This document shows positions 26,108-51,899 of a stretch of 64,000 nucleotides of DNA, in pieces; position 1 is the first letter of the stretch, and each line of letters opens with the position of its first letter. The stretch is from Candidatus Methanosuratincola subterraneus. GTDB taxonomy: Archaea; Thermoproteota; Methanomethylicia; Methanomethylicales; Methanomethylicaceae. The notes beneath the pieces are model-generated. The model saw nothing but the letters and a program-made list of their open reading frames with translations. It did not search any database and was not told the origin of the DNA. Made by a program: the position numbers and the translations under genes. The DNA is taken from the NCBI GenBank assembly GCA_004028775.1, contig RXGA01000001.1, forward strand, positions 186,001 through 250,000. The letters run 5' to 3'.

Positions 26108-26368
26108 GTGGTCGAGGCGTCCACAACTAAAATTTCCTCCAAAGGGCAAGTGGTCATACCTGCGAATGTACGCAAAGCCGCCCGTCTGAGGGAGGGCGAA
26201 AAAGTCTTGGTTGTTGCCATAGGCGACACGGTGGTCCTCAAGAAAATGATTGACAGGTCCTTTGAGGAGGCCATGAAGCCTGTTTGGGAAAAGGTCAGAA
26301 AAATGGGGCTTTCGGAGCAGGACATAGATGCCATCATCGAGGAAGCGCGTGCCCAAGGCAGTCCTTGA
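26108..26368 (+). CDS. AbrB-type antitoxin
   Basis: An 86-aa AbrB/MazE-like DNA-binding protein: TTKISSKGQVVIPANVRKAARLREGEKVLVV is the swapped-hairpin domain. The acidic C-terminal helix (LSEQDIDAIIEEARAQ) would contact the toxin. Start is GTG 26108, with GGTGAG upstream. Its end overlaps the PIN gene by 20 bp. Confidence 0.85.
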   Translation: MVEASTTKISSKGQVVIPANVRKAARLREGEKVLVVAIGDTVVLKKMIDRSFEEAMKPVWEKVRKMGLSEQDIDAIIEEARAQGSP

Positions 26369-26768
26369 TACCAATGTTTGGGTCTCCGCGCTGATCTGGG
26401 GCGGAAGGCCTTCTGAGGTGGTGCATGCTGCAGAAGATGGAATGATCAAGATCTTCGCGTCTAAGGAGATCATCGAGGAGATAAGCCAAGTTTTGGAATA
26501 CCCCAAGATCAAAAGGGTTTATGAGGCTGCAGGCATGCGCCACGAAGAACTGATTGAGACCATAATTGGGATCTCCAAGTTGGTCAATGCGAGCCTGAAA
26601 GTCACACTCATAGCCGAGCGTCCTGCAGACGACAAGTTCATCGAGTGCGCCTTGGCAGCAGGCGCAGGCTACATAGTCAGCGGAGATAGGCACCTGCTGA
26701 AAAAAGCCGGTTATGAGAAGATCCGGATCGTGCCGGTTGGCGAGTTTCTTGGAATATTGAAAAAATGA
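26349..26768 (+). CDS. PIN-domain toxin (COG1569-type)
   Basis: Predicted RNase of the PIN fold, 139 aa from GTG 26349 (ATG 26328 also possible). It begins PKAVLDTNVWVSALIWGG with the first catalytic Asp and contains PADDKFIECALAAGAGYIVSGDRHLL with the remaining acidic residues. The IIEEISQVLEYPKI segment is characteristic of this toxin subfamily. It pairs with the AbrB gene it overlaps. Confidence 0.85.
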   Translation: MPKAVLDTNVWVSALIWGGRPSEVVHAAEDGMIKIFASKEIIEEISQVLEYPKIKRVYEAAGMRHEELIETIIGISKLVNASLKVTLIAERPADDKFIECALAAGAGYIVSGDRHLLKKAGYEKIRIVPVGEFLGILKK

Positions 26769-28476: not shown

Positions 28477-28498
28477 GAAAGGCAAAACCGCAACCGTC

Positions 28499-28504
28499 TT
28501 TTTT
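28499..28504 (+). terminator. T6 tract after lpdA
   Basis: Six T residues 23 bases after the lpdA stop codon, followed by a pyrimidine-rich run; plausible termination signal. Confidence 0.4.
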
Positions 28505-28611
28505 CCCTCTTCGATGCCCCCATCATTTCAATCGGGGGGGAAGCGGTTCTCAACAAACGCGTTCATTTGCCGAAATCTTTCTGGTCCTACGCCGGCGACT
28601 CCAGAAGCCCT

Positions 28612-28764
28612 TTACCGCGGATCTCCTCTGCCATTAATCCATAGCTTTTCCAAGCACTTAAGATCCAGGCGGCAATCCTTCCGTATCTTAATCAACTTGA
28701 GAATCAGAGCTTTGTCCTCAATCACCGATGGCATAGCCATAGAGGCTGTCTTAATCCGCTTTGA
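28612..28764 (-). pseudogene. C-terminal remnant of a PIN-domain (VapC-like) gene
   Basis: A short minus-strand frame reads AMPSVIEDKALILKLIKI...LDLKCLEKLW and ends at 28612. It resembles the last third of PIN toxins and lines up loosely with the intact VapC at 38871-39290 (VPLVTEDKGLRERAK...VSLDQL). The frame is closed by TAA at 28765-28767, so the catalytic N-terminal part is gone. Weak evidence because of the length. Confidence 0.4.
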
Positions 28765-28895
28765 TTATGCTTAGCCTCATATTTTTTGCACTATTCAATT
28801 ATCTTTTAATGTCTATGGTTAATTTTCGATAAACAGTTGAGGTTTTTAGATGTGCTGTTTTATTGGAAGGAATTAAAATTGAAAAATAATCGTCG

Positions 28896-28913
28896 TTATA
28901 AAGTATATATACA
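28896..28913 (+). promoter_or_regulatory. Promoter of the defence-like cassette
   Basis: TTATAAAGTATATATAC offers two overlapping TATA elements in a strongly AT-rich leader. Predicted starts are 28926-28934, about 10-20 bases before the ATG at 28945. Confidence 0.6.
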
Positions 28914-28944
28914 AAAAACGCAAAATTATCCTGCGGTGTGCCTC

Positions 28945-31623
28945 ATGTCTCTAACGATCCGTGAAGCTGTAAGCAAGGGGAAGCTTGTATTCAAGGACTG
29001 GATAAAGACTTTCACCCCGGAGCTGTTCGAAGTAAACTTCTCAGACGTGATAGCCGGAAGGGGGAAGATATACTCCGACCCGGACGAGCTCTTCTCCAAC
29101 ACATACCTCACCGAGAGGATGAGGGACGTCCTGAGGTGGTGCCTGGCGAGGGCTGCCAAGCTATCGGATAATGGAATAATCCACCTGGCTACGGGCTTCG
29201 GCGGTGGGAAGAGCCACTTGCTCTCGCTCCTCTACCATACTTTCAGAACGAGGAGGGTGATAGACCCGCACATACTCGAGGAGCTCTCGCTGGGGGAGGT
29301 CCCAGAAGTCGAGATGGTGGCGGTGGACGGGCACAACCTGGCATACCCCATGTCCTCGCACCAGTCCCTCGGCAAGTACCTGAAGCCGACCAAGGACGAA
29401 ACGGTCAGCGCCCTCGAGTCCGCTGGGAAGCCTGTGGTCTTCTTGATAGACGAGCTGGTAGTCTACTTGGCTAAGATAAAAGAGTCCGAAGCCTCATCCG
29501 AGTTGGCACACCTCCACACGCTCATGGAATCGGTCAAGTCCGCCCCTGGCTGTCTCATGGTGATAAGCAGCCCGAGCGGATCGGCTGCATACGGGAAGGA
29601 GGCGGAGCAGCTTGACCAGGTGGTGCAGAAGAGCAGGACTTCGTCCGCCGCCCTGGCGCTCACCTCCATAACCAACCGCCTCACTGAACCGATAGTCCCA
29701 GTGGAGGCTGCAGACTTCCCCTCGATACTGAAGAAGCGGCTGGTTGAATACGTGGACGACTACACCGCAAAGGCAGTCGAGAACTGCCTCGGGAGGCTCG
29801 TCGGAGGGGTGGGGCTGGACTTCAGCGGCTGCTACCCGTTCCACCCCCTCCTGACCGATGTCCTATACACGAGGGCATCCCAGTTCCCGGGCTTCCAGAA
29901 GACGAGGGACTCGCTCAAGGTAGTGGCCCTGGCTGTGAAGGGGGTGTTGAGGAACCTCGAGAGGGCAGAATTCCACATGATCTCGCCCTCAGAGATGCCC
30001 TTCGACGACCCGGACCTGAAGTCCATCCTGACAAACGAGAAGGTCTTCGGGGTCAACCTGGAGCAGGCGGTCACGAAGGACATACTCGGGACAGCCAGGA
30101 CGAGGCTGGACGGCGGCGCCCCCTACGGCAGCTACGCGAGGGCAGCCTCGGCTGTATTCATGTACTCGCTCCACCCGGAGGAGAGCAAGAAGGGAGCACT
30201 CCCCGAGAACCTCTTCAGGTGCATGGTGCCCACGGTGAAGTCCAAGGATGACGCGGAGAAGCTGCTGGAGAACCTGTACAAGGAATCTGACTTTGTGTGG
30301 AAGAGCGAAGGCAGGTACCTCTTCAAGTCGAAGCAGAACGTCCCCAACATGATAAAGACCCGGGCTAACCAGGTGACGGAACACGAGGTCAAGGAATACG
30401 TCAGGAACACGCTCTTCCAGATCGTCTTCAAGGACGACGCCAGGTGCGCATTCTTCAGCGATCCGAACTTCTTCGCGCCTTCGGAGAACAGGCTGAACAT
30501 CCTCGTCGCCATGTACTGGGATGACAACCCGCAGGTAGCCTTGAGTGGCGCGCTGAGCATCACCGCGAACAATAAGAATACCATCGTCGCTCTCCTGCCG
30601 AACAAAGATCAGGCTGGGCTCCTGACTTATTATGCGAAGCAGGTGCTGGGGGCGGAGAAGGTCATAAAGGAATTGAGGGCTGACAAAGCCCTCTACGGCG
30701 AGGCACGCGCCCTGAAGGACCAATTCGAGGGGAACGCACTCAGCGCGTTCAAGAACATGTACAGCGAGGTCTGGTACTTGTCGGGGACGAACATAAAGCA
30801 AGAGAAGATAGACCCTGCCAGGGGAAATACTTTTGCGGATGCGCTGGTCGACCACCTCAGGCGGAAGCAGAAGCTGGCGGACCCCTCCACCATAGACCCA
30901 TCGGTATACATACCCCAACTGATGGGAATGAGGGACAGGGTGCCCGTTAGGGACCTCTACAAGGATGCCGAGACCATGACAACCCTGCCGTTCGCATTCC
31001 GGGAGGACCTAAGGAAGATCCTGAGCGTCGGGGTCAGGGACGGGGTTGTCGGTGCATTCGAAGGTGTGCTGCCGCCTCTACAGGACCTCACCAAGTACAA
31101 CAAGTGCCACTTCAGGGAGGTTTACGAGGTACAGGACGGGGACACAATCGTCAAGCCTGATCTGGCCACGGAGATCTTGAAGAGGCTGGAGGCGATAGCG
31201 GACGGGGGGAAGGCGGACACAGGGATGGCTGGCGTAACGGCGGCTGCGGGCATTGGTGCCGGCACAGCGGGAATCGACACAAGGACAACGGGCATTGGCA
31301 CAGGGGGCATCGGCTCAATAGGCGGAGGTGCGGCAGGCGTAGGCGCAACGACCACTACCCACACTGAAAGGGAAGTTATAGTTGCCAATATCTCGGATCT
31401 GTACGATGCTCTCAGCAAGAAGACCACCGAGCTGATGATCAACGGTGTGGAGTACGAGCTCGAGGCTGAGTTTACGGGCGCAATATCCGGGCGTCTTACT
31501 GCCAAGACACCCGAAGAGACCTCGGCTATGGTGAGCCTAATCCAGGCGCTCTCGGGTGCTGCTAAGATCCTGCCCTCAGTCAAGTCCACCGTGATCATAA
31601 TAAAGAGGGTGGGCAGCAGTTGA
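28945..31623 (+). CDS. DUF499-type AAA+ ATPase, defence-system ATPase
   Basis: Large P-loop ATPase of 892 aa. Walker A is ATGFGGGKSHLL (about residues 82-93); Walker B is VVFLIDELVVYL (Asp169-Glu170). A second region (about residues 540-640) carries further conserved-looking blocks (NILVAMYWDD, TIVALLPNK). DUF499/PglY-like ATPases recur in BREX-like and other defence islands. Residues about 750-808 form a Gly/Ala/Thr linker (GIGAGTAGIDTR and similar repeats), followed by a compact C-terminal domain. ATG 28945 is chosen because an upstream in-frame extension precedes the promoter. It is first in a four-gene co-oriented cassette and would couple ATP hydrolysis to DNA sensing or remodelling (inference). 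Confidence 0.8.
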   Translation: MSLTIREAVSKGKLVFKDWIKTFTPELFEVNFSDVIAGRGKIYSDPDELFSNTYLTERMRDVLRWCLARAAKLSDNGIIHLATGFGGGKSHLLSLLYHTFRTRRVIDPHILEELSLGEVPEVEMVAVDGHNLAYPMSSHQSLGKYLKPTKDETVSALESAGKPVVFLIDELVVYLAKIKESEASSELAHLHTLMESVKSAPGCLMVISSPSGSAAYGKEAEQLDQVVQKSRTSSAALALTSITNRLTEPIVPVEAADFPSILKKRLVEYVDDYTAKAVENCLGRLVGGVGLDFSGCYPFHPLLTDVLYTRASQFPGFQKTRDSLKVVALAVKGVLRNLERAEFHMISPSEMPFDDPDLKSILTNEKVFGVNLEQAVTKDILGTARTRLDGGAPYGSYARAASAVFMYSLHPEESKKGALPENLFRCMVPTVKSKDDAEKLLENLYKESDFVWKSEGRYLFKSKQNVPNMIKTRANQVTEHEVKEYVRNTLFQIVFKDDARCAFFSDPNFFAPSENRLNILVAMYWDDNPQVALSGALSITANNKNTIVALLPNKDQAGLLTYYAKQVLGAEKVIKELRADKALYGEARALKDQFEGNALSAFKNMYSEVWYLSGTNIKQEKIDPARGNTFADALVDHLRRKQKLADPSTIDPSVYIPQLMGMRDRVPVRDLYKDAETMTTLPFAFREDLRKILSVGVRDGVVGAFEGVLPPLQDLTKYNKCHFREVYEVQDGDTIVKPDLATEILKRLEAIADGGKADTGMAGVTAAAGIGAGTAGIDTRTTGIGTGGIGSIGGGAAGVGATTTTHTEREVIVANISDLYDALSKKTTELMINGVEYELEAEFTGAISGRLTAKTPEETSAMVSLIQALSGAAKILPSVKSTVIIIKRVGSS

Positions 31624-31663
31624 AGAGCGCATATAAAAGAGCAGGGGAGGAGGTCCTAAAATA

Positions 31664-32047
31664 ATGTTGGCACCAAAGCCAGGAGCAGAGATCCGCCTCC
31701 TCTACGACAACTTCAGGTACACCGTTAAGATCGACAGGGCAAGGAAGAGGGCAGTCCTGGTGGAGAGCTTCATGGGGCAGGATAATGCGATCGGCAGGGT
31801 AGGGGGGTGGAGGGCGATGGCGCTCGCCGAGCTGGACAGGCACTTCTCGGGCAGGGACAACCGTGAGAGGGGGTACAGGCTCTTCCTGGCAGCCAAGCTC
31901 CTGCCGGAAGTGGGCGCATCGAGGGCATGCAAAGCTCTCTCCGTCCTCAAAAGGCTGACGCTGGAGGAGACGATATTCTGGGTCTGGCAGTACCACTCCT
32001 ATGGAGCCAGGGCGATCGGGGCGCTGAAGCACATCCACATGAGGTAG
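31664..32047 (+). CDS. Small unknown protein of the defence-like cassette
   Basis: A 127-aa basic protein with no family I can name: FRYTVKIDRARKRAVLVESFMGQDNAIGR, then a helical LDRHFSGRDNRERGYRLFLAAKLLPEVG and a C-terminal aromatic-rich LEETIFWVWQYHSYGARAIGALK. It sits between the DUF499 ATPase and the methylase in the same orientation, with 40- and 65-bp gaps. Context suggests an accessory or specificity factor of the system. Confidence 0.65.
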   Translation: MLAPKPGAEIRLLYDNFRYTVKIDRARKRAVLVESFMGQDNAIGRVGGWRAMALAELDRHFSGRDNRERGYRLFLAAKLLPEVGASRACKALSVLKRLTLEETIFWVWQYHSYGARAIGALKHIHMR

Positions 32048-32112
32048 TGGCTTTGACCGACCGGCCAGCAACTGAGGGAAAATGTTGTTACATGAATTTT
32101 TGGTGATGGTCA

Positions 32113-34710
32113 ATGAGTGAAATTGTTGAAAACATAGAGGAAAAGGAGGAAGCTGAGAAGAAGGCGAAGGGCAGGTGCCTGCTAGAACGGGGCGTTCCTG
32201 TTGCGCTGATCAATACAGACGCAAAGAAGGAAAAGCTTGGGAAGCCGCCTATATCTGAGATGCACTATTATCACACGAGGAAGCCGCTGATCATATCGCG
32301 ACTTGCGGTTGCTGGGACTCTGCTCGGGGAAGAAGATGCGCCAGTCGAAGAAGAGGCATTCTACAAGTTCATGGGGCTGGACACCACGCTGGCTCAGAGT
32401 GGGTACAAGAGGGTGCCCTCTGAGCTTCTTAAGAAGATAAGGGAGCGGTACCCTGATGGAGTCACAGTGCTGGACCCCTTCGCCGGCACGGGGATGATAC
32501 TCTTCGAGGCGCTTAGGCTTGGTTGCGACGTTGTGGGAATAGATTACAACCCTGTTGCCTGCCTCATTATGAGGTGCACCTTGGAGTATCCGTTGAAATA
32601 CAATGCGATAAACAAGGACGGGCGGTTCAAGCTTTACAGCGACGTCAAATTTTACGCTGAAAGGATATACTCTTCACTGAAGGAGAAACTGGGGCGCTTT
32701 TACCCGCCCTACAAGGGGAATGAGGTAAAGGCATACATACATGCCTGGGCGGTGAAGTGCCCCTACTGCGGAAAGGAGACGCCCATTGTTGGGAACTGGT
32801 GGCTATCCTCCAAAGATGGACTCTATTTGGGATATCAGATCGAGGGAGACCGAATAACATACTCGGTAAAGAGGGGCGAGGCGCCAGAAGGTAATATGAA
32901 GGAGGGAGGAGCCACCTGCCTTTTCTGCACTCAATCAATAAAGAACGACTATATTGTAGAGGATATTTCAAAGAATGAAAGGGAGCACCTGCTGGCGCTC
33001 TACTTGGGCAAAGGGGAGTTTGCAATCGCGGACGAAGAGCAGAAAAGGGCACTCAATGACGCTAGGCAGTACCTGAAGGAACATCTGTCCGAACTATCAT
33101 CGTTCATACCGACGGAGAGTATGAATGATGAGAGTGCAGCCAACAGGTACCTCAAACAGTGGCACAGGGTCTTCAACCCGAGGCAGCTCTTAGTGTTGGC
33201 TTCGCTAGCCTGTGAGATAAAGAAGGTGGTTGAGGAGATAAGAGCAAGGGAGGGGGATGAGTACGCGGCTTCCATTGGATCCTACCTCTCTATGGTCCTC
33301 GCTAAACATGTGAACCGCAATTCTAGATCCGTGGGTTGGGACAACTCATATATGAAAATCGTACATTCTCTGACAATGCGCCGACCAAGTATGATGTGGA
33401 ACCATGCGGAGACCAACCCATTCGTCAAGTTCTCCGGATCGCTCGGCGGGATGATCCACGACGTGCTCGACGGGCTCGATTTCGCGCTGAATGAGCTGAA
33501 TCAAAAGGGGCTGGAGGGGAACCAACGGGCTCCAAAGCACGTTGAGATAATCAACGCCTCGATCCTCTCCTGGAAGCCGGAGGGCAACAGGAAGTTCAAG
33601 TTCATCATCACCGACCCGCCCTACTACGACGACGTCCAGTACCCGGAGATCATGCAGTTCTTCCAGGTTTGGCACGCTCGGAGCGTCGGGCACCTGCTGG
33701 GCATCAATCCCGTGCCCAACACGGCTGAGGAGCTGAGCGTCGGGCGGTACAGGGACGAGGAGATGTTCGAGAAGCGGATGCTGATTGCCATAAGGCGGAT
33801 GCACGACCTCCTAGACGACGATGGAGTCGCAGCGATATTCTACGCCCACAAGAAGGTGGAGGGGTGGAAGTACCTACTCGAGGCGCTGCGGAGGAGCGGC
33901 TTCAGGGTGACCTCCACGATAGCCCTCAGGACCGAGAGCTCCGAGAACGTCATCGCCAGGAATAAGAGCTCCATATTCCACTCATTGCTGCTCACAGCCA
34001 GGAAGCGCAGGGGCGAGAAGAAGGGCAACATCGTGGAGATAGAGGACGAGATAAAGAAGGCGATAATGGACCGATACGGGGAGCTGGAGAAGATCTACGG
34101 GAAGGACAGGACGAACCTGATGGTCGCAGCCTCCGGGATAGTCCTCGAGATAGTGACGTCTTACTCTGAGATAATGTCGTTCACGAAGGATCTCTCGGAG
34201 TACGCGCTGGAGACCGGTCAGAGGTTCCTGGTGGAGGCATTCGCAAGGAATGCGCTGGGGGTCGATCAGGTGGACGCGCCGACGATGGTCTACGCTTGGC
34301 TCAGGCACAGCGCCGAGAAGGACATGGACTACTCCGCGTTCAACCAGACTCTGAAAGCCCTCGGGGTATCGGAGCAGTCGCTGGGCGGGCTGGTTGAGAA
34401 GTCGGGCGGGAGGGTCAGGCTCCTGCAGTTCAGCGAGCGTGGATCGATCGAGGTGGACGGGGCTGAGCCGCTCGTGGCTGGGTCGCTGATAGACGCCGTG
34501 CACCTGACGCTCAGGGCGTACATGCGGGGAGGAGTGACTGCCGCATTGGAATACGTCGAGTCCTCGCCATACGGGAAGAACGCCATACTGGGGGTGATTA
34601 GGGCGCTGGCCGGCGCGCATGATCTGAACCCCTCGTACGAGGAGGGGAAAGTCTGCAAGGAGCTGCTCTCGGGGCTGGACTCGATGGACAGGACCATAAC
34701 CCAGTACTAG
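32113..34710 (+). CDS. DUF1156-type adenine-specific DNA methylase with zinc ribbon
   Basis: Predicted N6-adenine methyltransferase of 865 aa. The N-terminal DUF1156-like block LERGVPVALINTD...YHTRKPLIISRLAVAGTLL is clear. The SAM-binding motif is LDPFAGTGMILFEA (about residues 119-132), and the catalytic DPPYYDDVQYPE is at about residues 500-511. A zinc ribbon lies between them (CPYC at about 216, CLFC at about 268), as in COG1743 proteins. Long size fits the family. Likely modifies host DNA for self/non-self discrimination by the neighbouring helicase and ATPase (inference). ATG 32113 follows a GGTGATGGT ribosome site. Confidence 0.85.
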   Translation: MSEIVENIEEKEEAEKKAKGRCLLERGVPVALINTDAKKEKLGKPPISEMHYYHTRKPLIISRLAVAGTLLGEEDAPVEEEAFYKFMGLDTTLAQSGYKRVPSELLKKIRERYPDGVTVLDPFAGTGMILFEALRLGCDVVGIDYNPVACLIMRCTLEYPLKYNAINKDGRFKLYSDVKFYAERIYSSLKEKLGRFYPPYKGNEVKAYIHAWAVKCPYCGKETPIVGNWWLSSKDGLYLGYQIEGDRITYSVKRGEAPEGNMKEGGATCLFCTQSIKNDYIVEDISKNEREHLLALYLGKGEFAIADEEQKRALNDARQYLKEHLSELSSFIPTESMNDESAANRYLKQWHRVFNPRQLLVLASLACEIKKVVEEIRAREGDEYAASIGSYLSMVLAKHVNRNSRSVGWDNSYMKIVHSLTMRRPSMMWNHAETNPFVKFSGSLGGMIHDVLDGLDFALNELNQKGLEGNQRAPKHVEIINASILSWKPEGNRKFKFIITDPPYYDDVQYPEIMQFFQVWHARSVGHLLGINPVPNTAEELSVGRYRDEEMFEKRMLIAIRRMHDLLDDDGVAAIFYAHKKVEGWKYLLEALRRSGFRVTSTIALRTESSENVIARNKSSIFHSLLLTARKRRGEKKGNIVEIEDEIKKAIMDRYGELEKIYGKDRTNLMVAASGIVLEIVTSYSEIMSFTKDLSEYALETGQRFLVEAFARNALGVDQVDAPTMVYAWLRHSAEKDMDYSAFNQTLKALGVSEQSLGGLVEKSGGRVRLLQFSERGSIEVDGAEPLVAGSLIDAVHLTLRAYMRGGVTAALEYVESSPYGKNAILGVIRALAGAHDLNPSYEEGKVCKELLSGLDSMDRTITQY

Positions 34711-34723
34711 GCGGTGGAGAGCG

Positions 34724-37700
34724 ATGACCAGTGAAGGACATGGCACTCCCTTGAACGCCGCCCCCTGCGCCTCAACCTCAACAAACGCCTTTCTTGCCTC
34801 GACTAACGCCCCTCATTCTTCTATGAATACCGCTCCAGCACCCCCCGCAGGAGGATCGATATCCGAGGAATACCGGGGCTATGCTGCCTTCATGGCTTTC
34901 CTCACCGCCCACTACTTGGAGTGTAAAGCTGAATACGACCCCCTCTCGGTCTTCTCATCGTCGAAGATAGACCTCATCCCGTACCAGATCCACGATTTTG
35001 CGAAGCTCATGGAGGAGGAGAGGAGGGGCGGGTGCATCCGCACGCTCATAGCCTACGAGACCGGGCTTGGGAAGACCATCTTGGTGGGGATGCTGATCAA
35101 GGAGCTCCTTGGCAGGTCCGAGTTCCCGCTCAAGCCGCCGAGACCGCCAGCCAGGAGGATCCTGATAATCACGCCCCCCTCAGTGCTCCCGCAGTTCAGG
35201 GCTGAGATGAATGACAAGTTCGGGCTAGAGTTCACCACATTCGATCCCAAGAATCCATCCTTCGCGGACCTCACGATAGCCTCGATGGAGACCATGAAGG
35301 CAGACCGGTGGGAAGAGCGGCTCTCCTCCCAGGAGTGGGATATGATCGTCGTGGACGAGTACCACCGCGTATCCCCGTACAACTTGAGAAGGAGGCTGGT
35401 CTCGCTGCTCACGAAGAAGACCCGGCACTTCATTGCCCTCACAGCCACTCCTCACGACGGATCCTCCGAGAAGTACAACTTCCGCCTGAGCACGATCGCC
35501 CCGAGCCCGCTCGTCATCAGGAGGACTAAGAAGGAGGGCAAGGACATCAACAACCGCCCCCTCTTCGACCAGCTTGTGGAAGAAAGGAAGGAGGAGCCGC
35601 CCGTCACGCCGGATGAGGAGGACTTCTACCGGTCCGCAGAGCAGTACATAAGGAGGATCTACCGCGCCGGGCGAGGGTACGGGCTCCTCGGCGTTATAGT
35701 GAGCAGGGCCATATCCTCGAGTATGAGGGCGGGTCTGAAGCTGCTGAAGAGGAGGAGGGAGAAGATCGTCCTGGACCAGATCGAGGGCATCACCGACGAG
35801 GAGGCAGAGGAATACGCAGAGAGGGTGAGGGAGGGCGGGGAGCTCACGGAGGATGAGCTTGAGAAGTTGCTGGGCATGGCAGCCAGCAGGGAAGAGCTCG
35901 AGGCGGAGATCGCAGAGCTGAAGCCGCTCATCGAGAAGGGCGAGCGCCTCCTCAGGCAGATGCCGGTTGACAGCAAGGGAAAGCGCCTCCTCGAGATTGC
36001 AAGGGGGCTGAACGGCGAAGGGAGGAAAGCCATAATCTTCACGTCCTTCAGGGAGACGGTGGAGTACCTGAAGGAGATCTTGGCTGATCTCAATCCGCTC
36101 GTGATAACGGGATCCATGGACATAGACAAGAGGAAGAAGGTCGTGGACGAATTCACCAGCAGCGCGGCGCACAGGGTCATCGTCGGGACGGACGCCATGG
36201 GGGAGTCGCTTAACCTGCAGGCAGCCTCAGTCGAGGTGAACTACGAGGTGCCCTGGTCGCCCGTGGCGTACATACAGAGGGTAGGGAGGATATGGCGGCT
36301 GAAGCAGCAGCACAAGCACCTGCTGATAGTGAACTTCCTACCGCCGTTCCCAGTCGAGAGGAGGGTCATGGAGGTCATGCTCGAGAAGATAGCCAGGATA
36401 AGCAGGGAGTTCGGGGACGTGGGTCTCTCGGTATTCGGCAAGGAGCTCGGCCCCGTGGAAGAAGTGGTCAAGGAGGCATACACGGGCGGCGACGCAGAGG
36501 GAAGGCTGGAGAAGGCTCACGAGGCGACGGAGAAGCTGGGGAAGGAGGTCCTGGAAGTCCTGAGCAAGAGCATGTCGCTCCCGCGGGTAGTGAACGCCGA
36601 GTCTCTCCAAAAGCTGAACATCGTGAACCTCAACGACATAGTCCTCGAGGCAGACCTCCTTAGGTTCCTCCAGTACCTGAAGGACGCGGGGGCAGCGGTC
36701 GGGGACTTTCCATCGAGCTACCATGTCCACCTCGGCGATGAGTACGTGAGGGTGGACTCCAAATCCCTCTCCCTCGAGAGCAAGGGGATGAGGGCAGCGA
36801 TACAGGCTGGGAAGGGGCTCCTCTCCGGTGCTGGGTATCCGCGCGTCAGCTTCAGCTACAGCAAGGACATGGACGGAGAGATCGTGATCAAGGAAGTCAG
36901 GATAGGCGGGAGGGCGGTCTTCAGGGAGCCGTTGGTCGAGACCACAGACGGGGTGCTCACCTACAGGGGAGTCCTGAGCCTGGCGCCGGCGTTCACCGGA
37001 AGGATAGAGCCGGTCAGGTTCTTGCCGGCTAAGGAGTACGAGGAGGCGCAGAAGGGCAGGTGGCTGGAGTACGCGAGGAGGCTATGGGACGAAGGGCTGC
37101 AGCGCATTCGCAACGAGCTCTCCAAAGAGAAGGACGAGTACAGGAGGGAGGGGATAAGGGCGAGTTTGAAGGAGTGGTTCGCCAATGAGCCGAATCAGTC
37201 GAATGTCGAGGTCATCACAGTCCGGCTCGGCGCAGGCGTCTGCCTGGGACAAGGGGCGGGAGCTGGGACAAGCACAGGCGCATCAGCAAACGCAACCATT
37301 GCAGCAGAAGCAGAAACGGGAACAGTAGTAGAAACAGGGGCAGTAGCAGTTGCTGATCCAGGCCAAGACGCAGGTGCGGGGATGGGCGAAGGATCGTCCG
37401 CGAGCCCTGTGAGGTTCGTAAAGTCCCCTGAGGATGCCTGGAGGGAGAGGCACGAAGTGGAGATGATGGCTATGAGGGCAGCGGAAACTCACTTCAGAGC
37501 GAAGGGGTACAGGGTGAAGGATGTGTCGGCTGAGAACCGGGGTTACGACCTCGAGTGCTCCCGGGCGGACGGGACTCTGAGGGTGGAGGTTAAGGGGCTG
37601 AGGCACTGGTCCTGCCCAGAGCTTACGCCGAACGAGAAGGTCATGGCAGAGTTCTACCACGAGTCATACGTCCTTTTCATAGCCAAGGAAGGGGGCGGGG

Positions 37701-37816
37701 CTGTAACGATTTATGCCGTGCCAGATCCGCTCAAAAACCTGAACGTGAAGGAGGTCCTGCGACCGTTCTACGAGCTCACAGGGTTTGAGAGGTTTGTTGG
37801 GAATAGCAGCGCCTGA
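34724..37816 (+). CDS. SNF2-family helicase with DUF3883-like nuclease-type C-terminus
   Basis: Superfamily 2 ATPase of 1,030 aa. Motif I is YETGLGKTILVG (about residue 111), motif II VVDEYHRVS (about 209), motif III ALTATPHDG, motif V GTDAMGESLNLQAA and motif VI YIQRVGRIWRLKQ. The C-terminal block, after about residue 905, includes ENRGYDLECSR...LRVEVKGL, a PD-(D/E)XK-like/DUF3883 pattern that may cut DNA. Two low-complexity segments, residues 1-45 and about 835-900, flank the core. ATG 34724 has GGTGGAG upstream, 13 bases after the methylase stop, so the two are one operon. Class 1 DISARM also pairs an SNF2 helicase with an adenine methylase. Confidence 0.85.
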   Translation: MTSEGHGTPLNAAPCASTSTNAFLASTNAPHSSMNTAPAPPAGGSISEEYRGYAAFMAFLTAHYLECKAEYDPLSVFSSSKIDLIPYQIHDFAKLMEEERRGGCIRTLIAYETGLGKTILVGMLIKELLGRSEFPLKPPRPPARRILIITPPSVLPQFRAEMNDKFGLEFTTFDPKNPSFADLTIASMETMKADRWEERLSSQEWDMIVVDEYHRVSPYNLRRRLVSLLTKKTRHFIALTATPHDGSSEKYNFRLSTIAPSPLVIRRTKKEGKDINNRPLFDQLVEERKEEPPVTPDEEDFYRSAEQYIRRIYRAGRGYGLLGVIVSRAISSSMRAGLKLLKRRREKIVLDQIEGITDEEAEEYAERVREGGELTEDELEKLLGMAASREELEAEIAELKPLIEKGERLLRQMPVDSKGKRLLEIARGLNGEGRKAIIFTSFRETVEYLKEILADLNPLVITGSMDIDKRKKVVDEFTSSAAHRVIVGTDAMGESLNLQAASVEVNYEVPWSPVAYIQRVGRIWRLKQQHKHLLIVNFLPPFPVERRVMEVMLEKIARISREFGDVGLSVFGKELGPVEEVVKEAYTGGDAEGRLEKAHEATEKLGKEVLEVLSKSMSLPRVVNAESLQKLNIVNLNDIVLEADLLRFLQYLKDAGAAVGDFPSSYHVHLGDEYVRVDSKSLSLESKGMRAAIQAGKGLLSGAGYPRVSFSYSKDMDGEIVIKEVRIGGRAVFREPLVETTDGVLTYRGVLSLAPAFTGRIEPVRFLPAKEYEEAQKGRWLEYARRLWDEGLQRIRNELSKEKDEYRREGIRASLKEWFANEPNQSNVEVITVRLGAGVCLGQGAGAGTSTGASANATIAAEAETGTVVETGAVAVADPGQDAGAGMGEGSSASPVRFVKSPEDAWRERHEVEMMAMRAAETHFRAKGYRVKDVSAENRGYDLECSRADGTLRVEVKGLRHWSCPELTPNEKVMAEFYHESYVLFIAKEGGGAVTIYAVPDPLKNLNVKEVLRPFYELTGFERFVGNSSA

Positions 37817-38001
37817 GTTTAAAGAATAGCTTAAAAAATCATTCGGATATTGCAAGCCAATAATTTAGAATCTGGCTTTCGATGGCTAAAAGGTCGAGGA
37901 AATAAGACCCGGGAAGTTTTCATGGTTTGAGTCGCAATTAATACAAATATTAATCCTTATTAACTAAAAATCAAAAATAGAGATATGCGGAGTGAAAATA
38001 A

Positions 38002-38187
38002 ATGTCAAACTGTCCTGTTTGCGGTAAATCGATACAAAAAGAATCAAAATCTTGGAAGTACGGAAAATTCGACGTAAAGGAGTACATCTGCGGCTGCGGA
38101 GTGACTTTCAGGGATTATTACATCGGCGAGGAGTTCAAGTTCACGCTGAGGAAGGAAGAAGGGAAAGGCTTCATAAAGGCTAGATAA
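38002..38187 (+). CDS. Small zinc-ribbon protein
   Basis: A 61-aa protein with CPVCGK near the N-terminus and CGCG around residue 30, enough for one zinc ribbon. The rest is basic. GGAGTGA lies 6 bases before ATG 38002. It follows the defence cassette after a 185-bp AT-rich gap and may be an accessory nucleic-acid binder; no function can be named. Confidence 0.6.
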   Translation: MSNCPVCGKSIQKESKSWKYGKFDVKEYICGCGVTFRDYYIGEEFKFTLRKEEGKGFIKAR

Positions 38188-38292
38188 TTTCGTATCTGCA
38201 TGGCTTTTTAAATCGCGGATTTCTTTTAAGATGCCTATCAATAAGAATAACCATTATTAGCAAACAATTATTGTTGTGTCACTGTGTTAGAT

Positions 38293-38745
38293 ATGCCCCA
38301 AAAAGTATTCTATTTTGCGTACGGATCGAATATGGATCAAGATAGGCTGAGAGGTAGGATAGGCTCTTTCCACTCAAGAAAGCGTGCAACACTCAATGGA
38401 TATAACCTTGTGTTTAACAAGCGCGATTCAAGCTACCCGGGCTCTGGCTCGGCCAATATCGTCAGAGGCGAGGGAAGGGTTGAAGGCATACTCTATGAAA
38501 TTGATGAAACCAGCCTCAAAAGATTAGATTATTACGAAGGCTTTCCTGCCCATTATAATAGGATAGAGGTTGAAGTCGAATGCGAGGGAAAGCTTCTCAA
38601 AGCATGGGTTTATGTTGCTAACGAAAATAAGGTTGAAGAAGGACTAAAGCCGAAAAGGGAATACCTGAATCACCTCCTGAAGGGCCAAGATCTGCTCTCA
38701 GAAGAATATATAGAAGAACTGCAGGCGGTAGAGACGATAGATTGA
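38293..38745 (+). CDS. Gamma-glutamylcyclotransferase-like (GGCT/AIG2 fold) protein
   Basis: 150 aa. The family signature FAYGSNMDQDRL near the N-terminus and the conserved acidic residue in LKRLDYYEGFP are present, giving the cyclotransferase fold that cleaves gamma-glutamyl amides. The true substrate in archaea is unknown. Start is ATG 38293; GTG 38284 is possible. Confidence 0.8.
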   Translation: MPQKVFYFAYGSNMDQDRLRGRIGSFHSRKRATLNGYNLVFNKRDSSYPGSGSANIVRGEGRVEGILYEIDETSLKRLDYYEGFPAHYNRIEVEVECEGKLLKAWVYVANENKVEEGLKPKREYLNHLLKGQDLLSEEYIEELQAVETID

Positions 38746-38870
38746 TGTAAATCGCCATGGCCAATTCATGATCGATTTACAAAGTGAACTAAGGATGAGG
38801 AAAGCGAAAGTTCCTTAAGCGCTTATTTCAATTTTCCCTCCGACGTGCTGTCTATCGGTCTCCAGTAGGA

Positions 38871-39290
38871 TCATTGTACATCTCGGCAATTTATGTGGCC
38901 AAGCTGGTCTAGGCTCACAGTTTTTACCTTGCATTTTGCCCTCTCCCTCAGCCCCTTGTCCTCAGTCACCAGTGGCACCCCTCGGGCTTTCGCAGCATAG
39001 ACGTATGAAGCGTCGTAGAATGCGATCTTAAGCTCCTCAGCCACATTAAGCACGCCCTCTTCCTGCCCCTCTATGTCGATCACTTTCATCAGTTTGAGCC
39101 CGTCTCTAGCCAGGGCGAGGAGCTTCGCTTGGGCATCTGTTTTTAGGTCCTTGGAAAGCATGCCCCTCTTCCATATCACGTTTCCCAACTCGTACCTGGC
39201 GAGGCTGATCGTCAGGTTGCCGCTGAGGCACCTTATCCTTTTCCTGATCAGAGCCTCGAATATCGACGAAGAATCGAAGACGCAACTCAT
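38871..39290 (-). CDS. vapC: PIN-domain ribonuclease toxin (VapC)
   Basis: A 139-aa PIN protein. Catalytic acids are Asp in CVFDSSSIFEAL, Glu in ARYELGNVIWK, Asp in IAFYDASYVYAAK and Asp in LVTEDKGLRE. Its ATG overlaps the stop of the antitoxin gene (ATGA type), so they are translated together. Confidence 0.85.
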   Translation of the reverse strand: MSCVFDSSSIFEALIRKRIRCLSGNLTISLARYELGNVIWKRGMLSKDLKTDAQAKLLALARDGLKLMKVIDIEGQEEGVLNVAEELKIAFYDASYVYAAKARGVPLVTEDKGLRERAKCKVKTVSLDQLGHINCRDVQ

Positions 39291-39517
39291 CGGGAATCCC
39301 TGTCTTCCCTGATGGCTTTGACCACGTACTCCGTGGAGAATTTTGCCAATTCATCTTTCATCTCGTCCGCCCTCCGCTCCAGCTCCTCGATCTCCCTCTC
39401 CCTGATCTCGTCTAATATGGCCTTCTTCAAAATCTCCGAGGGTCTGATGCCGTGCTTCTTCAACTTCTCTTTTACTTCCTTGGGCACTTTGACCGAGAGC
39501 GTGGTGTACTTGCTCAA
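39287..39517 (-). CDS. vapB: Ribbon-helix-helix-like antitoxin (VapB)
   Basis: Small antitoxin of 76 aa starting SKYTTLSVKVPKEVKEKLKKHGIRPSEILKKAI, a strand-helix-helix pattern, followed by a charged coiled-coil-like tail. A TATA-like ATATAAGG on the opposite strand reading (39551-39558) predicts a transcript start near 39527. That favours TTG 39517 (GGTGG just upstream) over TTG 39541. Confidence 0.75.
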   Translation of the reverse strand: MSKYTTLSVKVPKEVKEKLKKHGIRPSEILKKAILDEIREREIEELERRADEMKDELAKFSTEYVVKAIREDRDSR

Positions 39518-39731
39518 TTTACCACCAATTGTTACTACCAAAAGGTGGGCATATAAGGTTTACCTAAATTGGGTTCACAGGAACCGGCAGACGCAGCGCG
39601 TCCGAATTGCCTGGGCATTCTACTGAGGCTCAAGGTGAAGTACCACATTGCAGTCCGGAGTTCCCCTCATATCGCTCACAGCCGCCGCAACGGCGTGGGT
39701 GCTGGGATGGGGGCATGCCTCATCGCGGCGT

Positions 39732-40466: not shown

Positions 40467-40677
40467 CGAAACCGCCTCGGATTGTTGCAACTACTCTGCT
40501 TTGTGGAAATATAAGAAGATGGTCAGTCCTCAAGGGCGATGCTTAGCATAAGCCCAAGTTGTGCAATTAACCACTAGAGCAATCCTGCCTCCTATTCTCA
40601 TTCATACATGGAGCGACATGGTTAATAGGTCTCTATGCCCATACCTGCTTATCTGGAATGCCGTGGAGGGGATTGCC

Positions 40678-45699: not shown

Positions 45700-47775
45700 T
45701 CAACTCGACCCAGCCTGGACCTTGGACCTCCCTCCCTCCTTCTGGATCCTGAATATGTGGTCCACCGCGCCCTCGAGCTCCCTCTCGTGCGAGACTATCA
45801 CAGCCTGCCTCAGCCCCAGCTCCCTCAGGAGGTCCCCCATCTTCCCGATCTGATCCTTGCTGAAGCCGTCCGTCGGCTCGTCCAGTATGAGAAGGTCGGC
45901 GCCTATCCTCGAGTTCCTCTGGACGACCCTGTTCAGCGCCAGCCTGTACGCGAGCGCGAGCGAGGTCCTCTCCCCGCCGCTCAGGTTGCCCACGTCCTGC
46001 TCGTAAGAGTCCTGCGTCACGAGGGGGGTGAAGTCCTCGTCTATCCTGACGCCCTTCGACGGGTCCTCGACCAGGTAGGAGAACCACTTCGAGAACTCCT
46101 CCTCGAACTCCCTCCTGACCGCGTTCATCACAGTGAGCTCTATCCTCTCGAGCGCAGCCGCGAAGTACTTCACAAGCCACTCTGAGTGCAAGCCGAGCCT
46201 CTCCGCCCTCCTCCTCTCGCCCTCGAGCCTCTCGGCCTCTGCCTTCAGGTCAGCCAGCCTATTCCTCTCCACGGCAATCTCCTTCTCCAGCGCGGCCTTC
46301 CTGCTGAGGATGCCGTCCCTCTCCTTTTCCTTCTTGGTGATCTGCGCCTCGCACTCCTCGCACTCCCTCTTAACAGCCTTGTAAGCCTCTGCCGCCCCTT
46401 CCGCCCTTGCCTTCCTTTCCGAGAGCTCCTTTTCCCTCTCCTTCGCCTCCCCGAGCCTGTGCTGGGCGTCGAAGATGCCGTCCTCCACCTCGGACGCCGT
46501 CGCCTCAAGCCCATTGAGCTGCCCCTTCTTCATGGCGTATTCTGCGATCTCCTTCCTCCCCCTCTCGAGGTCCCTGATCTCCTCGGCCGTCTTCTGCCGC
46601 TCCATCCTTACCTTTTCGTATTTTGCCTCTGCCTCCTGGAGGTGGGCCGCGTACTCTGCCCCGTCGATCGCCCTGTTGCAAGTCGGGCAGTACCCCTTCA
46701 TTACGAGCGTCTTCACATTGTCCAGGTCTGCCTTGAGCCTCCCGAGCTCCTTGTCGTACCCGCTCAGCCTCGCCTTCGCCTCCTCGAGCATCCCCTCGAC
46801 CTCATCCTCGGACATGGCGGGCTCTATTATGGGCCCAATCGCCTTTATTCTCGCCTGGAGGTCCTCCAGCCTCTTTTTGCCGGTCTCGATCTTCTTCTCC
46901 AGATCGGCGATCTCCTTCCTCGCCCTCTGGAGATCCGACTCTATCCGATCGATGCCCTCCGCGTCCTTCGCGCGGGCCAGCAGCTCCGCCTGCAGGCTCC
47001 CCCTTCTCTCCTTGAGCTTTCCAATCTCCCCCTCGATCATTTCGGCCTCAGCCTTCAGGCGCTGCAGCCCCTCCTCGCGATCCGGGAGCCTCTCCTCGAT
47101 GCCCCTGATCTCCTCCTGTATTTCCGCCAGGCGTTCGGTGCCTTTCCTTATGTACTCGGCTTCCTTCCTCAGGTCCGACGCGATCGCCTTGGCGTTCTCC
47201 ATGGCGATCTTGTACTCCTCGATCCTGAGCGCCTTCCTGATCGTCTGGAGCCTCAGGTCCGGCGGCTGCGAGAGGATCTCCTTCATCTCCTCCTGGGGGG
47301 TGTAGACTGCATACCTGAATATGACGCTCTTGGCCTTCGGGTCGACAGGCTCGTTGTAGTTGAGTATCTTGAGGACCTGCTCCTTCATCTCGCTCGGCGA
47401 GTAGGATGTCCGGACGCCGTCTACCTCGATCCAGCAATCGGACTGCTTCACGCCTGCCGGGACGAGGAGCCCTTGGTGCAGCGATCCTGCCTTGGAACCC
47501 CCTGCCCTCCTGCCCCTCTCCAGCCCCCTGTGCACCTTGACCTCCTTCCCGCCCGTCTCCAATGTGAGCTCGACGCTGCCTGAGTTCTTCCCGATGCTGA
47601 GCAGCGTCGTCCCCTTCTCGTTCCCGAGCCCGAAGAGCGCGAACTCGATAGCGAGGAGCAGGGTGGACTTCCCCGCGCCGATCCCGCCCTCGAAGAGGAT
47701 GATCCCCTCCGGGAGCCTCACCTCTTCCTCCTCGTAGGTCCGGATGTTCCTGAGCTTTATCGACTTGATGATCAT
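45700..47775 (-). CDS. rad50: DNA double-strand break repair ATPase Rad50
   Basis: SMC-like ATPase, 691 aa. Walker A is FEGGIGAGKSTLLLA; two long coiled coils flank the zinc hook GYCPTCNRAIDG at about residue 360; the ABC signature is NLSGGERTSLALAYRL; Walker B is DLLILDEPTDGF and the H-loop VIVSHERELEG. It tethers DNA ends and controls Mre11. Its start overlaps the mre11 stop by ATGA. A short Gly/Arg-rich insert (GLERGRRAGGSKAGS) near residue 85 is unusual. Coiled coils are shorter than in most archaeal Rad50 (about 880 aa). Confidence 0.93.
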   Translation of the reverse strand: MIIKSIKLRNIRTYEEEEVRLPEGIILFEGGIGAGKSTLLLAIEFALFGLGNEKGTTLLSIGKNSGSVELTLETGGKEVKVHRGLERGRRAGGSKAGSLHQGLLVPAGVKQSDCWIEVDGVRTSYSPSEMKEQVLKILNYNEPVDPKAKSVIFRYAVYTPQEEMKEILSQPPDLRLQTIRKALRIEEYKIAMENAKAIASDLRKEAEYIRKGTERLAEIQEEIRGIEERLPDREEGLQRLKAEAEMIEGEIGKLKERRGSLQAELLARAKDAEGIDRIESDLQRARKEIADLEKKIETGKKRLEDLQARIKAIGPIIEPAMSEDEVEGMLEEAKARLSGYDKELGRLKADLDNVKTLVMKGYCPTCNRAIDGAEYAAHLQEAEAKYEKVRMERQKTAEEIRDLERGRKEIAEYAMKKGQLNGLEATASEVEDGIFDAQHRLGEAKEREKELSERKARAEGAAEAYKAVKRECEECEAQITKKEKERDGILSRKAALEKEIAVERNRLADLKAEAERLEGERRRAERLGLHSEWLVKYFAAALERIELTVMNAVRREFEEEFSKWFSYLVEDPSKGVRIDEDFTPLVTQDSYEQDVGNLSGGERTSLALAYRLALNRVVQRNSRIGADLLILDEPTDGFSKDQIGKMGDLLRELGLRQAVIVSHERELEGAVDHIFRIQKEGGRSKVQAGSS

Positions 47776-49106
47776 TGGGCTTGCGGCCTCCTGCCGGGCG
47801 CGAAGGCTTTGGCGCCTCCGAGATCACTACCAGCATTGGCGACCCGATCGCTTGCGCCCTTGCCGATCCCTGCGCCCTCCTGTAGAATCCCGAGGGCCGA
47901 CCTTACCTCCCTGTTCAGCCTCCCGTAGTAGTCCTCGAGGCTCTCCCCCTCCTGTTTCGGGTTCCTCAGTGCTGAGAGCAGCCTCTTCGCGACCGCGGTC
48001 TCTTCCTTCACCACGGGCTCGCCGTCCCTGCCCTTGACCGAACCCGCCATCTCTTTGAAGATCTTCCCCTCGATCTCCTCGGCGCTCTCGCCCATCGCAG
48101 TGACCATCCCCATCTCCCTGGTCCGCAGGGCATTCCTGTTGAGGTGGAGGTAGATCGCCCCGCTCTCCGCAAGGATCTCCCTGATGAGCCCGAACTCGAT
48201 GTCGCTGGTCCTCCCGGACGAGAGCTCCCCGTGCACCTTGAGCAGGACGACCTTCCCCGCCGCGTCCACCTCGGTCGCCCATAGCCTGAGCTCCTCGTTG
48301 AGCTCATCCGCGGTCTTCCCCGTCGCGTCTATGACCTTGTGCACACCCTCGAATGGCCTCAGCTCGACGAACTCGAGCCTTGGCTTAACCTCCTGGCTTG
48401 CCTCAACTATGTAGAACCCCCTCCGCTCGCCCAGCACAGTCGCCTCGAGGTCCCCGCCCCACCCGGTGAAGAGCGGCCCTGGGAAGACCACCCTCCCTGA
48501 CCTGTCGACTCTGTGGATGTGGCCCCCTGCGTAGTAGTCGAAGCCCTCTGGGAGCGCGCTCTGCGAGATCCCGTCGAACTTCTCGCCCTCCTTCCGCATC
48601 TCGAGGAGGCCGGTGTGGAAGACGAAGATCTTGAAGCCTTCGATCTGCTTCAGGTACTCCCTGTCCAGATCTGCGAAAGCCTCCTTCTCGAGGGAGGATC
48701 TCCTCCCAGAGATCCCCGTGATCTTCGCGCCTGTCCTGCCGTCGGTGATCACTTCGGGCCTCAGCTTCCCTTCCTCAGCGGACGGCTTGCCAACCCTCAC
48801 GACGACCCCTGCCGCCTCAAGGATGTCTATTATCGAGGTCGAGTTCGGGGAGAAGTCGTGGCTCCCGTACACCACGTAGATCTTCCTCCCTGTGTCGGTG
48901 AACCTCTTGAAGACCTCCACTGCCCCTTTCACGACCGCGAGGTCCGGTATGTTGATGTGGAATATGTCGCCTGCTATGATCACAAAGTCCACCCCGCGCT
49001 CCTCGCATATCCTGAACGCCCTCTCTAGGGTCGACGACTCGAGATCCTTCATCTTGGGATCCGAGACTGCCCCGAGGTGGAGGTCTGCCATGTGCGCGAA
49101 CTTCAT
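47772..49106 (-). CDS. mre11: DNA double-strand break repair nuclease Mre11
   Basis: Manganese phosphoesterase, 444 aa. Metal-binding motifs are HMADLHLGAV, IIAGDIFHIN, VYGSHDFSP (motif III usually GNHD, here Ser for Asn), VFHTGLLE and YYAGGHIHRV. With Rad50 it processes DNA ends, and HerA-NurA then resects. The start ATG 49106 has GGGGTG 8 bases upstream. The C-terminus runs into a basic Gly/Ala-rich tail. Confidence 0.92.
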   Translation of the reverse strand: MKFAHMADLHLGAVSDPKMKDLESSTLERAFRICEERGVDFVIIAGDIFHINIPDLAVVKGAVEVFKRFTDTGRKIYVVYGSHDFSPNSTSIIDILEAAGVVVRVGKPSAEEGKLRPEVITDGRTGAKITGISGRRSSLEKEAFADLDREYLKQIEGFKIFVFHTGLLEMRKEGEKFDGISQSALPEGFDYYAGGHIHRVDRSGRVVFPGPLFTGWGGDLEATVLGERRGFYIVEASQEVKPRLEFVELRPFEGVHKVIDATGKTADELNEELRLWATEVDAAGKVVLLKVHGELSSGRTSDIEFGLIREILAESGAIYLHLNRNALRTREMGMVTAMGESAEEIEGKIFKEMAGSVKGRDGEPVVKEETAVAKRLLSALRNPKQEGESLEDYYGRLNREVRSALGILQEGAGIGKGASDRVANAGSDLGGAKAFAPGRRPQAQ

Positions 49107-49194
49107 TCAGATTGCACCCCTGCCCTCAAACCTTCTCTCCAAATCCCCTTTTTCTGCCTTGCTTCTCGCCCCGCAGGCACCCCCGAGTGCTCCC

Positions 49195-50781: not shown

Positions 50782-50843
50782 ATCTCCACGCCCTTTTTGA
50801 CCTTCCTGATGCTCTTTCTTTACCCTGATCCTCCACTGGCGAG

Positions 50844-51899
50844 TCAACCCCCAAGGGAGTCCAGCACCTCGTGGGGGGCACTCGCCCTCTCCATCAGCTC
50901 GAGCCTCTCCGCCTCCTCAGGGCTCAGCCTGTCCAGGATCTGACCCTTGAGGCTCTCAACCTCATGGTTCCCCACTTTCGCGTATGTGTGCGCGTCGATC
51001 AGCGGGTACGGGTACCCGGGGTACCACATGTACGAGGAACAAGCCAAGAGCCCCCTGAGGAGGGAATCCAGCTGCCCGCCTGTCGCGCCTTCAAAGACGT
51101 CAAGCCTGTATCCCCTGTCCGCCGCCTCGTGGAGCCTAGCGTAGTAGACTGTCGCGTGGTGGGCCCACTCCTCTGACATCCCGAGCCTGATTATCCATCT
51201 CTCGTACCCTTTTCTCCTCGCCATGAAATCAACAGTGCCCGCGACTGGGTACCCGCTCTCAAGGTAAATGATCGTGCTCTTCGAGAGGCCTGCGACGACC
51301 GCGCCCCGCTCCTTTGCTTTCTGGTAGAGCCTGTTGGCGAACTCGGTCTCGCCCTTGAACGCAGTCTGGAGCGCCCCGTCGATAAGGACACACTCGGCGC
51401 CGGACTCGACCGCCCTCTCCGCCATCTTCCACTCGCAGAACCTCCTGGCGATGGAGACCGCCCTGGTCATGTCCCCGTACATGTTCCCGACCATCAGCGA
51501 CTGGTCCCTGGTGTCGATCTCCAACGGATCGAGCGGGCACCCGCCCGAAATCGGGTACACCTCGGTCCGGAAGATCGCCTTCCCCTCCTTCTTCATGACC
51601 TCGGTCTTGGAGATGAACTCGACGGTCTCGCAGTGGTCCATCTTTTTCATGCCGAGGAACTGGTTGTAGTAGACCCTGTTCAAGACGACAGCAAGGGTGG
51701 GGGTCATCAACACCGCATTGGATCCCCCGTCGACCGCAGAGATCACCGGTATCTCATCGGATCCGGGGAGGGGGAGCTCCTTAAGGTCCTCCTCCTTCAG
51801 CGCTTCATTGAACCCCGAGACTATCCCCGCATTCGGGAGATCCAGGTGCCCCCTCAGCGCCTCGCAGATCTCGTCCAGAAGTCCCGGCAAAGCACGCAA
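50844..51899 (-). CDS. nurA: 5'-3' nuclease NurA
   Basis: 351-aa nuclease, partner of HerA. Catalytic acidic residues fall in VISAVDGGSNAVLM near residue 55 and in CVLIDGAL near residue 170, with the conserved TIIYLESG and HATVYYARL segments. First gene of the resection operon. TTG 51899 is 30 bp from the centre of a TATA box (51926-51933) and may be leaderless; TTG 51890 with GAGG 8 bases upstream is the alternative. Confidence 0.88.
   Translation of the reverse strand: MRALPGLLDEICEALRGHLDLPNAGIVSGFNEALKEEDLKELPLPGSDEIPVISAVDGGSNAVLMTPTLAVVLNRVYYNQFLGMKKMDHCETVEFISKTEVMKKEGKAIFRTEVYPISGGCPLDPLEIDTRDQSLMVGNMYGDMTRAVSIARRFCEWKMAERAVESGAECVLIDGALQTAFKGETEFANRLYQKAKERGAVVAGLSKSTIIYLESGYPVAGTVDFMARRKGYERWIIRLGMSEEWAHHATVYYARLHEAADRGYRLDVFEGATGGQLDSLLRGLLACSSYMWYPGYPYPLIDAHTYAKVGNHEVESLKGQILDRLSPEEAERLELMERASAPHEVLDSLGG

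Follow-up and report, generated by a model that had tools for sequence, protein, structure and literature searches.

What kind of system do four tightly packed archaeal genes encode, and is the smallest of them a working part of it? The genes lie at 28945-37816 of a 64 000-nucleotide stretch of contig RXGA01000001.1 (the window), from the archaeal genus Candidatus Methanosuratincola (Thermoproteota, Methanosuratincolia). An earlier note on this DNA had proposed a distinct new restriction system built on an ATPase, a methylase and a helicase/nuclease. The reading that we hold to be very probable is a different one, namely that the cassette is an intact archaeal helicase-methylase-ATPase (Hma) system, equal to a Type-1 BR system (BR, related to BREX, bacteriophage exclusion), and that it consists of four proteins and not three, with a DUF7680-like protein as a dedicated partner of the ATPase and the counterpart of DUF3780. 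Six sequence features underlie this reading: the gene content, the catalytic motifs, the recurring gene order, the homology of the small gene, its place next to the ATPase and the cassette-free sites of congeners.

Gene content and family

All four open reading frames (ORFs) are intact and co-directional on the + strand, with gaps of only 40, 65 and 13 nt (5' to 3'). ORFs, gaps and Pfam matches agree with the order DUF499, small protein, DUF1156 and SNF2-DUF3883 given in the earlier note. The ATPase (28945..31623, 892 aa) is a DUF499 AAA+ protein, ORC/Cdc6-like and HmaC-like. It matches Pfam DUF499 (6.7e-16), PADLOC HmaC as its best model (1.2e-35) and NCBIfam DUF499_antiphage (3e-34, under that model's 1200-bit cut-off), and in an alignment with relatives its Walker A (GGGKS/TH) and Walker B (LIDE) motifs are conserved. 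The small gene (31664..32047, 127 aa), identified as DUF7680-like by a leave-out profile, a close relative (L125; compared loci are cited by L numbers) and an AlphaFold2 model, is treated below.

The HmaB-like methylase (32113..34710, 865 aa, with a zinc-ribbon insert) matches Pfam N6_N4_Mtase (4e-13) and DUF1156 (2e-6). PADLOC ranks the generic MTase_II model first (1.4e-67) and HmaB next (1.1e-54), with a weak match to PglXI. DPFAG, DPPY and the four Cys residues of the insert are invariant in the alignment; the DPPY motif points to an amino-methyltransferase, which is predicted to be of the N6-adenine type. The HmaA-like helicase (34724..37816, 1030 aa) joins an SNF2/RapA-like motor to a C-terminal NOV_C/DUF3883 PD-(D/E)XK nuclease (Pfam Helicase_C 7e-23, SNF2 4e-9 and NOV_C, the DUF3883 region, 3.4e-8). 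Its best PADLOC model is HmaA (1.8e-62), above DrmD and BrxH, and its nearest solved structure is RapA. The motifs GLGKT, DExH and QRxGR are conserved in five relatives, as is the D...ExK triad (D942, E955, K957) of the nuclease, the activity of which is a prediction.

The window helicase begins with a low-complexity stretch and has nothing TUDOR-like at its N-terminus. An N-terminal block found in the helicases of L035, L106 and L107 is missing from the window and L105 proteins; within it, L106 and L107 show weak SH3-like matches. A TUDOR at this position is a minor, variable feature. Linkers rich in Gly, Ala, Thr and Ser, absent from the aligned relatives, also occur in the window proteins (ATPase ~775-830; helicase 1-45 and ~850-905).

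On sequence grounds, the three large genes are of a known kind, Hma or Type-1 BR, and the proposal of a distinct new system gives way, since systems of this kind had already been described. Hma was proposed in 2021 (Payne et al., PMC8565338) as a three-gene operon found in 26 phyla, with the methylase annotated as m5C. A 2026 study (Rakesh & Krishnan, PMC12839542) renamed the class as DUF499-centred BR systems, with three types in 3592 taxa, and described Type-1 as three genes whose helicase carries an N-terminal TUDOR and a C-terminal active restriction endonuclease. The fusion of SNF2 to DUF3883 was noted in 2013 as a restriction nuclease in DUF499 loci (PMC3710099). An archaeal COG1743-DUF499-SWI2/SNF2-nuclease operon, proposed to restrict modified DNA, was described by Bell et al. 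in 2020 (PMC7641849).

The window shares with Hma the helicase, methylase and ATPase, encoded here by neighbouring genes with PADLOC matches to HmaA, HmaB and HmaC, and both fall in a widespread but patchy family. It differs in having a fourth gene between ATPase and methylase and in a methylase whose DPPY motif points to an amino-methylase rather than the annotated m5C enzyme. With Type-1 BR it shares the DUF499 ATPase, a DUF1156 N6-methylase with an insert of the target-recognition/zinc-ribbon kind, a Swi2/Snf2 helicase (Pfam, PADLOC and motifs) and, as judged from NOV_C and D942/E955/K957, a C-terminal PD-(D/E)XK nuclease, and both lack PglZ. However, the published type has only three genes and a TUDOR on its helicase, whereas the window adds a conserved DUF7680-like gene and has no TUDOR-like N-terminus. 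The cassette is therefore a variant of Type-1 BR and not its canonical form. The operon of Bell et al. has the same three core proteins, also in archaea; it has a separate EVE gene, and the accessible part of the paper does not mention a small gene beside DUF499. Neither the cassette nor those adjacent genes that were scanned showed an EVE domain.

The small protein behind the ATPase

Searched directly, the 127-aa protein matches nothing in PADLOC, NCBIfam or Pfam, even at E=1, so that its link to DUF7680 emerged only through relatives. These were gathered by a methylase search of 398 genomes of the phylum with inspection of the neighbourhoods, followed by one scan of named genomes. Proteins of 117-135 aa are encoded at the same position in a second Methanosuratincola locus and in L125, L127, L107/L129 (both Nitrososphaerota), L105 and L106. 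A profile of six such proteins, built without the window protein and run on 4348 ORFs (all loci plus the window), recovered it at E=4.3e-18; the further matches listed, down to about E=0.03, were all small ORFs beside DUF499 ATPases. The closest relative, from L125 (Bathyarchaeota), is 43% identical and passes the gathering threshold of Pfam DUF7680 (PF24728; 26.2 vs 24 bits). In profile alignment the window family matches the DUF7680 group at E ~1e-5, with a score of 37.7 against at most 13.1 for shuffled controls, apart from one edge artefact. By these comparisons the 127-aa protein, encoded directly behind the DUF499 ATPase, is probably a divergent member of the DUF7680 family, which is widespread but has hardly been studied. 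The published Hma and BR accounts that we found do not name DUF7680.

The order ATPase, small protein, methylase, helicase, which the earlier note had suggested seeking elsewhere, does recur in unrelated genomes. It is present in Bathyarchaeota (L125), Nitrososphaerales (L127), Nitrososphaerota (L129), several other Thermoproteota, Haloarchaea and Chloroflexota, with L034, L035, L105-L107 and L218 among the loci, and this recurrence argues that the arrangement is not due to chance. In Chloroflexota an ASCH-DUF7680 fusion is encoded between ATPase and methylase.

To examine the position of the small gene without reference to DUF499, the DUF7680 Pfam model was run on ~300 Chloroflexota genomes, ~250 Halobacteriota genomes and 12 genomes to which earlier loci had led. 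Each of the matches (25/25) sits immediately 3' of a gene for a DUF499 ATPase. They come from Haloarchaea, Chloroflexota and other archaea; five of the 12 genomes had been picked for holding a DUF499-type locus, and the remaining 20 matches were not preselected. A small gene was recognised in 65 loci; all 65 have it downstream of the ATPase, and in 63 it overlaps the ATPase gene or sits within 30 nt of it. This holds whatever the operon order (AsMH, MAsH, HMAs and others, where A is the ATPase, s the small protein, M the methylase and H the helicase). One haloarchaeal DUF7680 locus (L177) has a PLD-type helicase, as in Type-2 BR. The methylase tree places the window next to L125, joined after that by L105/L127, L218 and the other S1 loci, and this group is sister to a large archaeal M-A-s-H clade. 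Loci with DUF7680 and those with DUF3780 make up clades of their own, and so, for the most part, do loci that lack the small gene. The ATPase tree was less well resolved.

DUF3780, proposed mechanism and rival explanations

DUF3780, for which the 2026 study reported no definitive homologs (PMC12839542), is the fourth gene of Type-2 BR. Type-2 loci inspected on plasmids have the order DUF499-DUF3780-DUF1156-PLD helicase (the NCBIfam 'anti-phage-associated' set), that is, the four-gene order of the window with the small gene likewise directly after the ATPase. They differ in combining DUF3780 with a PLD/HKD helicase nuclease, where the window has a DUF7680-like protein and a DUF3883 nuclease; in the window proteins Pfam matched neither DUF3780 nor PLD. 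The two small proteins nevertheless have a common predicted topology, and their homology has moderate support in sequence. The AlphaFold2 model of the window protein (mean predicted local distance difference test, pLDDT, 86.7) is βββα+αααα, with strands at 17-24, 29-36 and 39-47 and helices at 49-60, 66-82, 85-97, 100-113 and 115-125. The DUF3780 model (pLDDT 82.8) has the same series of elements, with a single additional strand following the first long helix, and the motifs E..FW (window) and EERWW (DUF3780) both stand at the start of the equivalent helix. Foldseek searches of the small-protein model against PDB and BFVD gave nothing significant (best E 0.03 and 0.07, TM ~0.2), and a PDB sequence search with the small-protein and ATPase profiles gave nothing useful.

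In hhalign, the DUF7680 group aligns with DUF3780 over 150 columns at E=3.3e-5 in one direction and 1.3e-3 in the reverse, whereas unrelated control ORFs reached E ~0.06 or worse. Column shuffles reached 18.9 against 37.7, artefacts aside. Four single shuffle scores were ~130-136; the three re-examined proved to be hhalign edge artefacts at gapped ends, one spanning only four aligned columns. When all small groups were merged into one alignment the signal fell to background, and the link to DUF3780 is therefore one of the DUF7680 group and of no wider set. Within that limit, sequence and models make homology of DUF3780 with the DUF7680 group likely, if not proven.

An alignment had been deepened with DUF3780 from IMG/VR, used solely for this purpose, in which 29 contigs labelled viral (L278-L306) carry the gene. 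These could be carried defence islands or misclassified contigs. A methylase scan of viral contigs gave only weak motif-length matches.

We lean towards a wider proposal, in which the unnamed proteins of 110-180 aa encoded after archaeal DUF499 ATPases would belong with DUF7680 and DUF3780 to a single superfamily. Its members would be a fourth core subunit of DUF499-centred Hma/BR immunity that has so far been overlooked; as partners of the ORC/Cdc6-like ATPase they might, for instance, be readers or adaptors that couple restriction to the modification state. If so, both the three-gene definition and the view of DUF3780 as a TUDOR stand-in unique to Type-2 would need revision. L106 and L107 already fit poorly with the suggestion in print that DUF3780 takes the place of a lost TUDOR, as they appear to have both the small gene and an SH3-like helicase N-terminus.

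In the proposed mechanism, the DUF1156 methylase would mark host DNA as self with N6-methyladenine, the ORC/Cdc6-like ATPase would assemble on DNA and scan it, and the SNF2 helicase with its PD-(D/E)XK nuclease would be recruited, translocate on unmarked DNA and cut it. The 127-aa protein would probably act as an adaptor of the ATPase to methylase or helicase, or report the modification state of the DNA to the ATPase. A reader role is hinted at by the ASCH fusions, ASCH being PUA-like, since domains of the PUA superfamily bind modified bases (PMC7641849).

Several points weigh against this four-protein reading. The ATPase, methylase and helicase score far under the cut-offs of the NCBIfam anti-phage equivalogs, so that they need not be functional orthologs; that the system methylates, restricts and acts against viruses is inferred from the families by homology, and only gene order and domain fusions point to a role as adaptor or reader. 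The small-gene groups of Thermoproteota were first picked as neighbours of the ATPase, which makes adjacency there partly circular (the downstream bias and tight spacing are not), and for that reason only the whole-genome DUF7680 searches test adjacency without bias. Finally, ~24 of 91 DUF499 loci have no recognisable small partner (allowing for L035 and L130, ATPase masked), truncated and Type-3 loci among them.

It would be in keeping with the last point, and with the publication of Hma and Type-1 BR as three-gene systems, if the cassette were a plain three-gene system and its small protein a lineage-specific passenger or regulator outside the mechanism. We regard this as unlikely, given that homologous small genes occupy the same place across archaeal and bacterial phyla (DUF7680 beside DUF499 in 25/25), stay behind the ATPase when the operon order shifts, and are distributed by methylase clade and not at random, even though some related loci lack them. 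Far less credible is a Type-3 BR system that lost PglZ, its small protein being a degenerate BrxF/iSTAND-like sensor. Type-3 BR has a small iSTAND gene and is frequent in archaea (PMC12839542), and Type-3 BREX (BrxC, PglXI, BrxHII, PglZ, BrxF, BrxA) has, according to the same study, a homologous ATPase/methylase/helicase core. But the predicted β3-α-α4 fold is not an α/β P-loop, and a profile comparison stayed at background (E 0.05-0.3) when made against the presumed iSTAND gene of haloarchaeal PglZ-type loci, which encodes 129 aa; on these two grounds the iSTAND/BrxF identity was rejected. Moreover, the window helicase keeps the nuclease that Type-3 helicases lack, and the Pfam model found no PglZ in the whole genome (96.7% complete).

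The absence of PglZ also tells against a partial or decayed BREX system or DISARM (defence island system associated with restriction-modification), which we consider the most improbable of the alternatives. The helicase does match BrxH and DrmD, but HmaA outscores both, the tie to DISARM runs through generic helicase models, and the three core genes recur without DrmA, DrmB, PglZ or BrxL in relatives with the same gene order. The PADLOC scan suggested by the earlier note returned no complete DISARM or BREX and no match to their core components except the generic helicase and the weak PglXI match of the methylase; DrmA, DrmB and DrmC were not found among the four genes beyond the shared helicase domain, no genome-wide search for them having been made. 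The earlier view of a conserved ATPase-methylase-helicase/nuclease cassette, predicted to be defensive and neither DISARM nor canonical BREX, therefore stands.

We take the four-gene form, with its DUF7680-like subunit, as a new variant, one that probably brings to light a core component so far overlooked. Hma/BR operons are among the most widespread defence operons (PMC8565338, PMC12839542), and a subunit that follows the ATPase, is sometimes fused to ASCH and apparently unites DUF7680 with DUF3780 offers a concrete handle on how they sense invaders. In clades that carry the small gene, heterologous tests with the three named genes alone may omit a needed part, and the window provides a compact, intact copy from a methanogenic lineage of Thermoproteota.

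Insertion site, leader and neighbouring genes

The insertion site (28477-39541 of the window, compared with L314, L316 and L317) lies between a lipoamide dehydrogenase gene, upstream of the cassette, and the gene at 40561. Two genomes have the cassette there. Two congeners have none, their lipoamide dehydrogenase gene being adjacent to the gene that stands at 40561 in the window, and a third congener has a PIN protein and different genes at the site. This makes the cassette a variable, island-like insertion. A public metagenome-assembled genome of Ca. M. petrocarbonis has the same cassette, with a methylase 96% identical, and by Pfam models the source genome encodes one DUF499 and one DUF1156 protein.

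The single AT-rich promoter described earlier is borne out as far as the leader goes: 28477..28944 (+ strand, read directly from the sequence) has a GC content of 41.5% against 57.6% for the window and includes an archaeal TATA-like sequence, TTATAAAGTATATATA, ~30-45 nt 5' of the ATG of the ATPase gene. Its function as a single promoter for the cassette is putative, a sigma-70 promoter scan being inapplicable to archaea. The flanks reported earlier agree in part with the Pfam matches, which show a MazE-like and PIN_3 pair upstream (26108-26768) and, downstream (38284-39541), genes for GGACT and PIN proteins along with a weak CcdA-like ORF. The broken methylase was not found: across all six frames of the window, the profile of this methylase family matched the intact gene and nothing else, although a fragment of another family may have escaped it. 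Both Methanosuratincola DUF499 cassettes have a GGACT (gamma-glutamylcyclotransferase-like) gene beside them, which in the window lies downstream (38284-38745) and in L035, judging by eye, upstream (11088-11543).

Other DUF499 loci showed further variation. A metallo-beta-lactamase/beta-CASP-like protein (415-429 aa), recognised by eye from HxHLDH motifs, directly follows the helicase in several archaeal loci (L042 2890-4137, L043 5388-6638 and L048 56-1345) and is a possible alternative nuclease effector. In the divergent-methylase subtype a second conserved helical protein of 174-184 aa adjoins the helicase (L039 4697-5245, L044 12785-13309 and L110 7305-7859); the L044 copy had no significant Pfam match. 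The haloarchaeal loci L138-L147 are laid out as ATPase-PglZ (~310 aa)-methylase-129 aa, which would fit Type-3 BR, and haloarchaeal genomes with PglZ-type loci can also carry a DUF7680-type locus elsewhere (L177, L178). Downstream of the island, at 45700-51899 of the window, HerA and NurA (Pfam) stand beside two Rad50- and Mre11-like genes, in what appears to be an ordinary archaeal operon for DNA-end resection.

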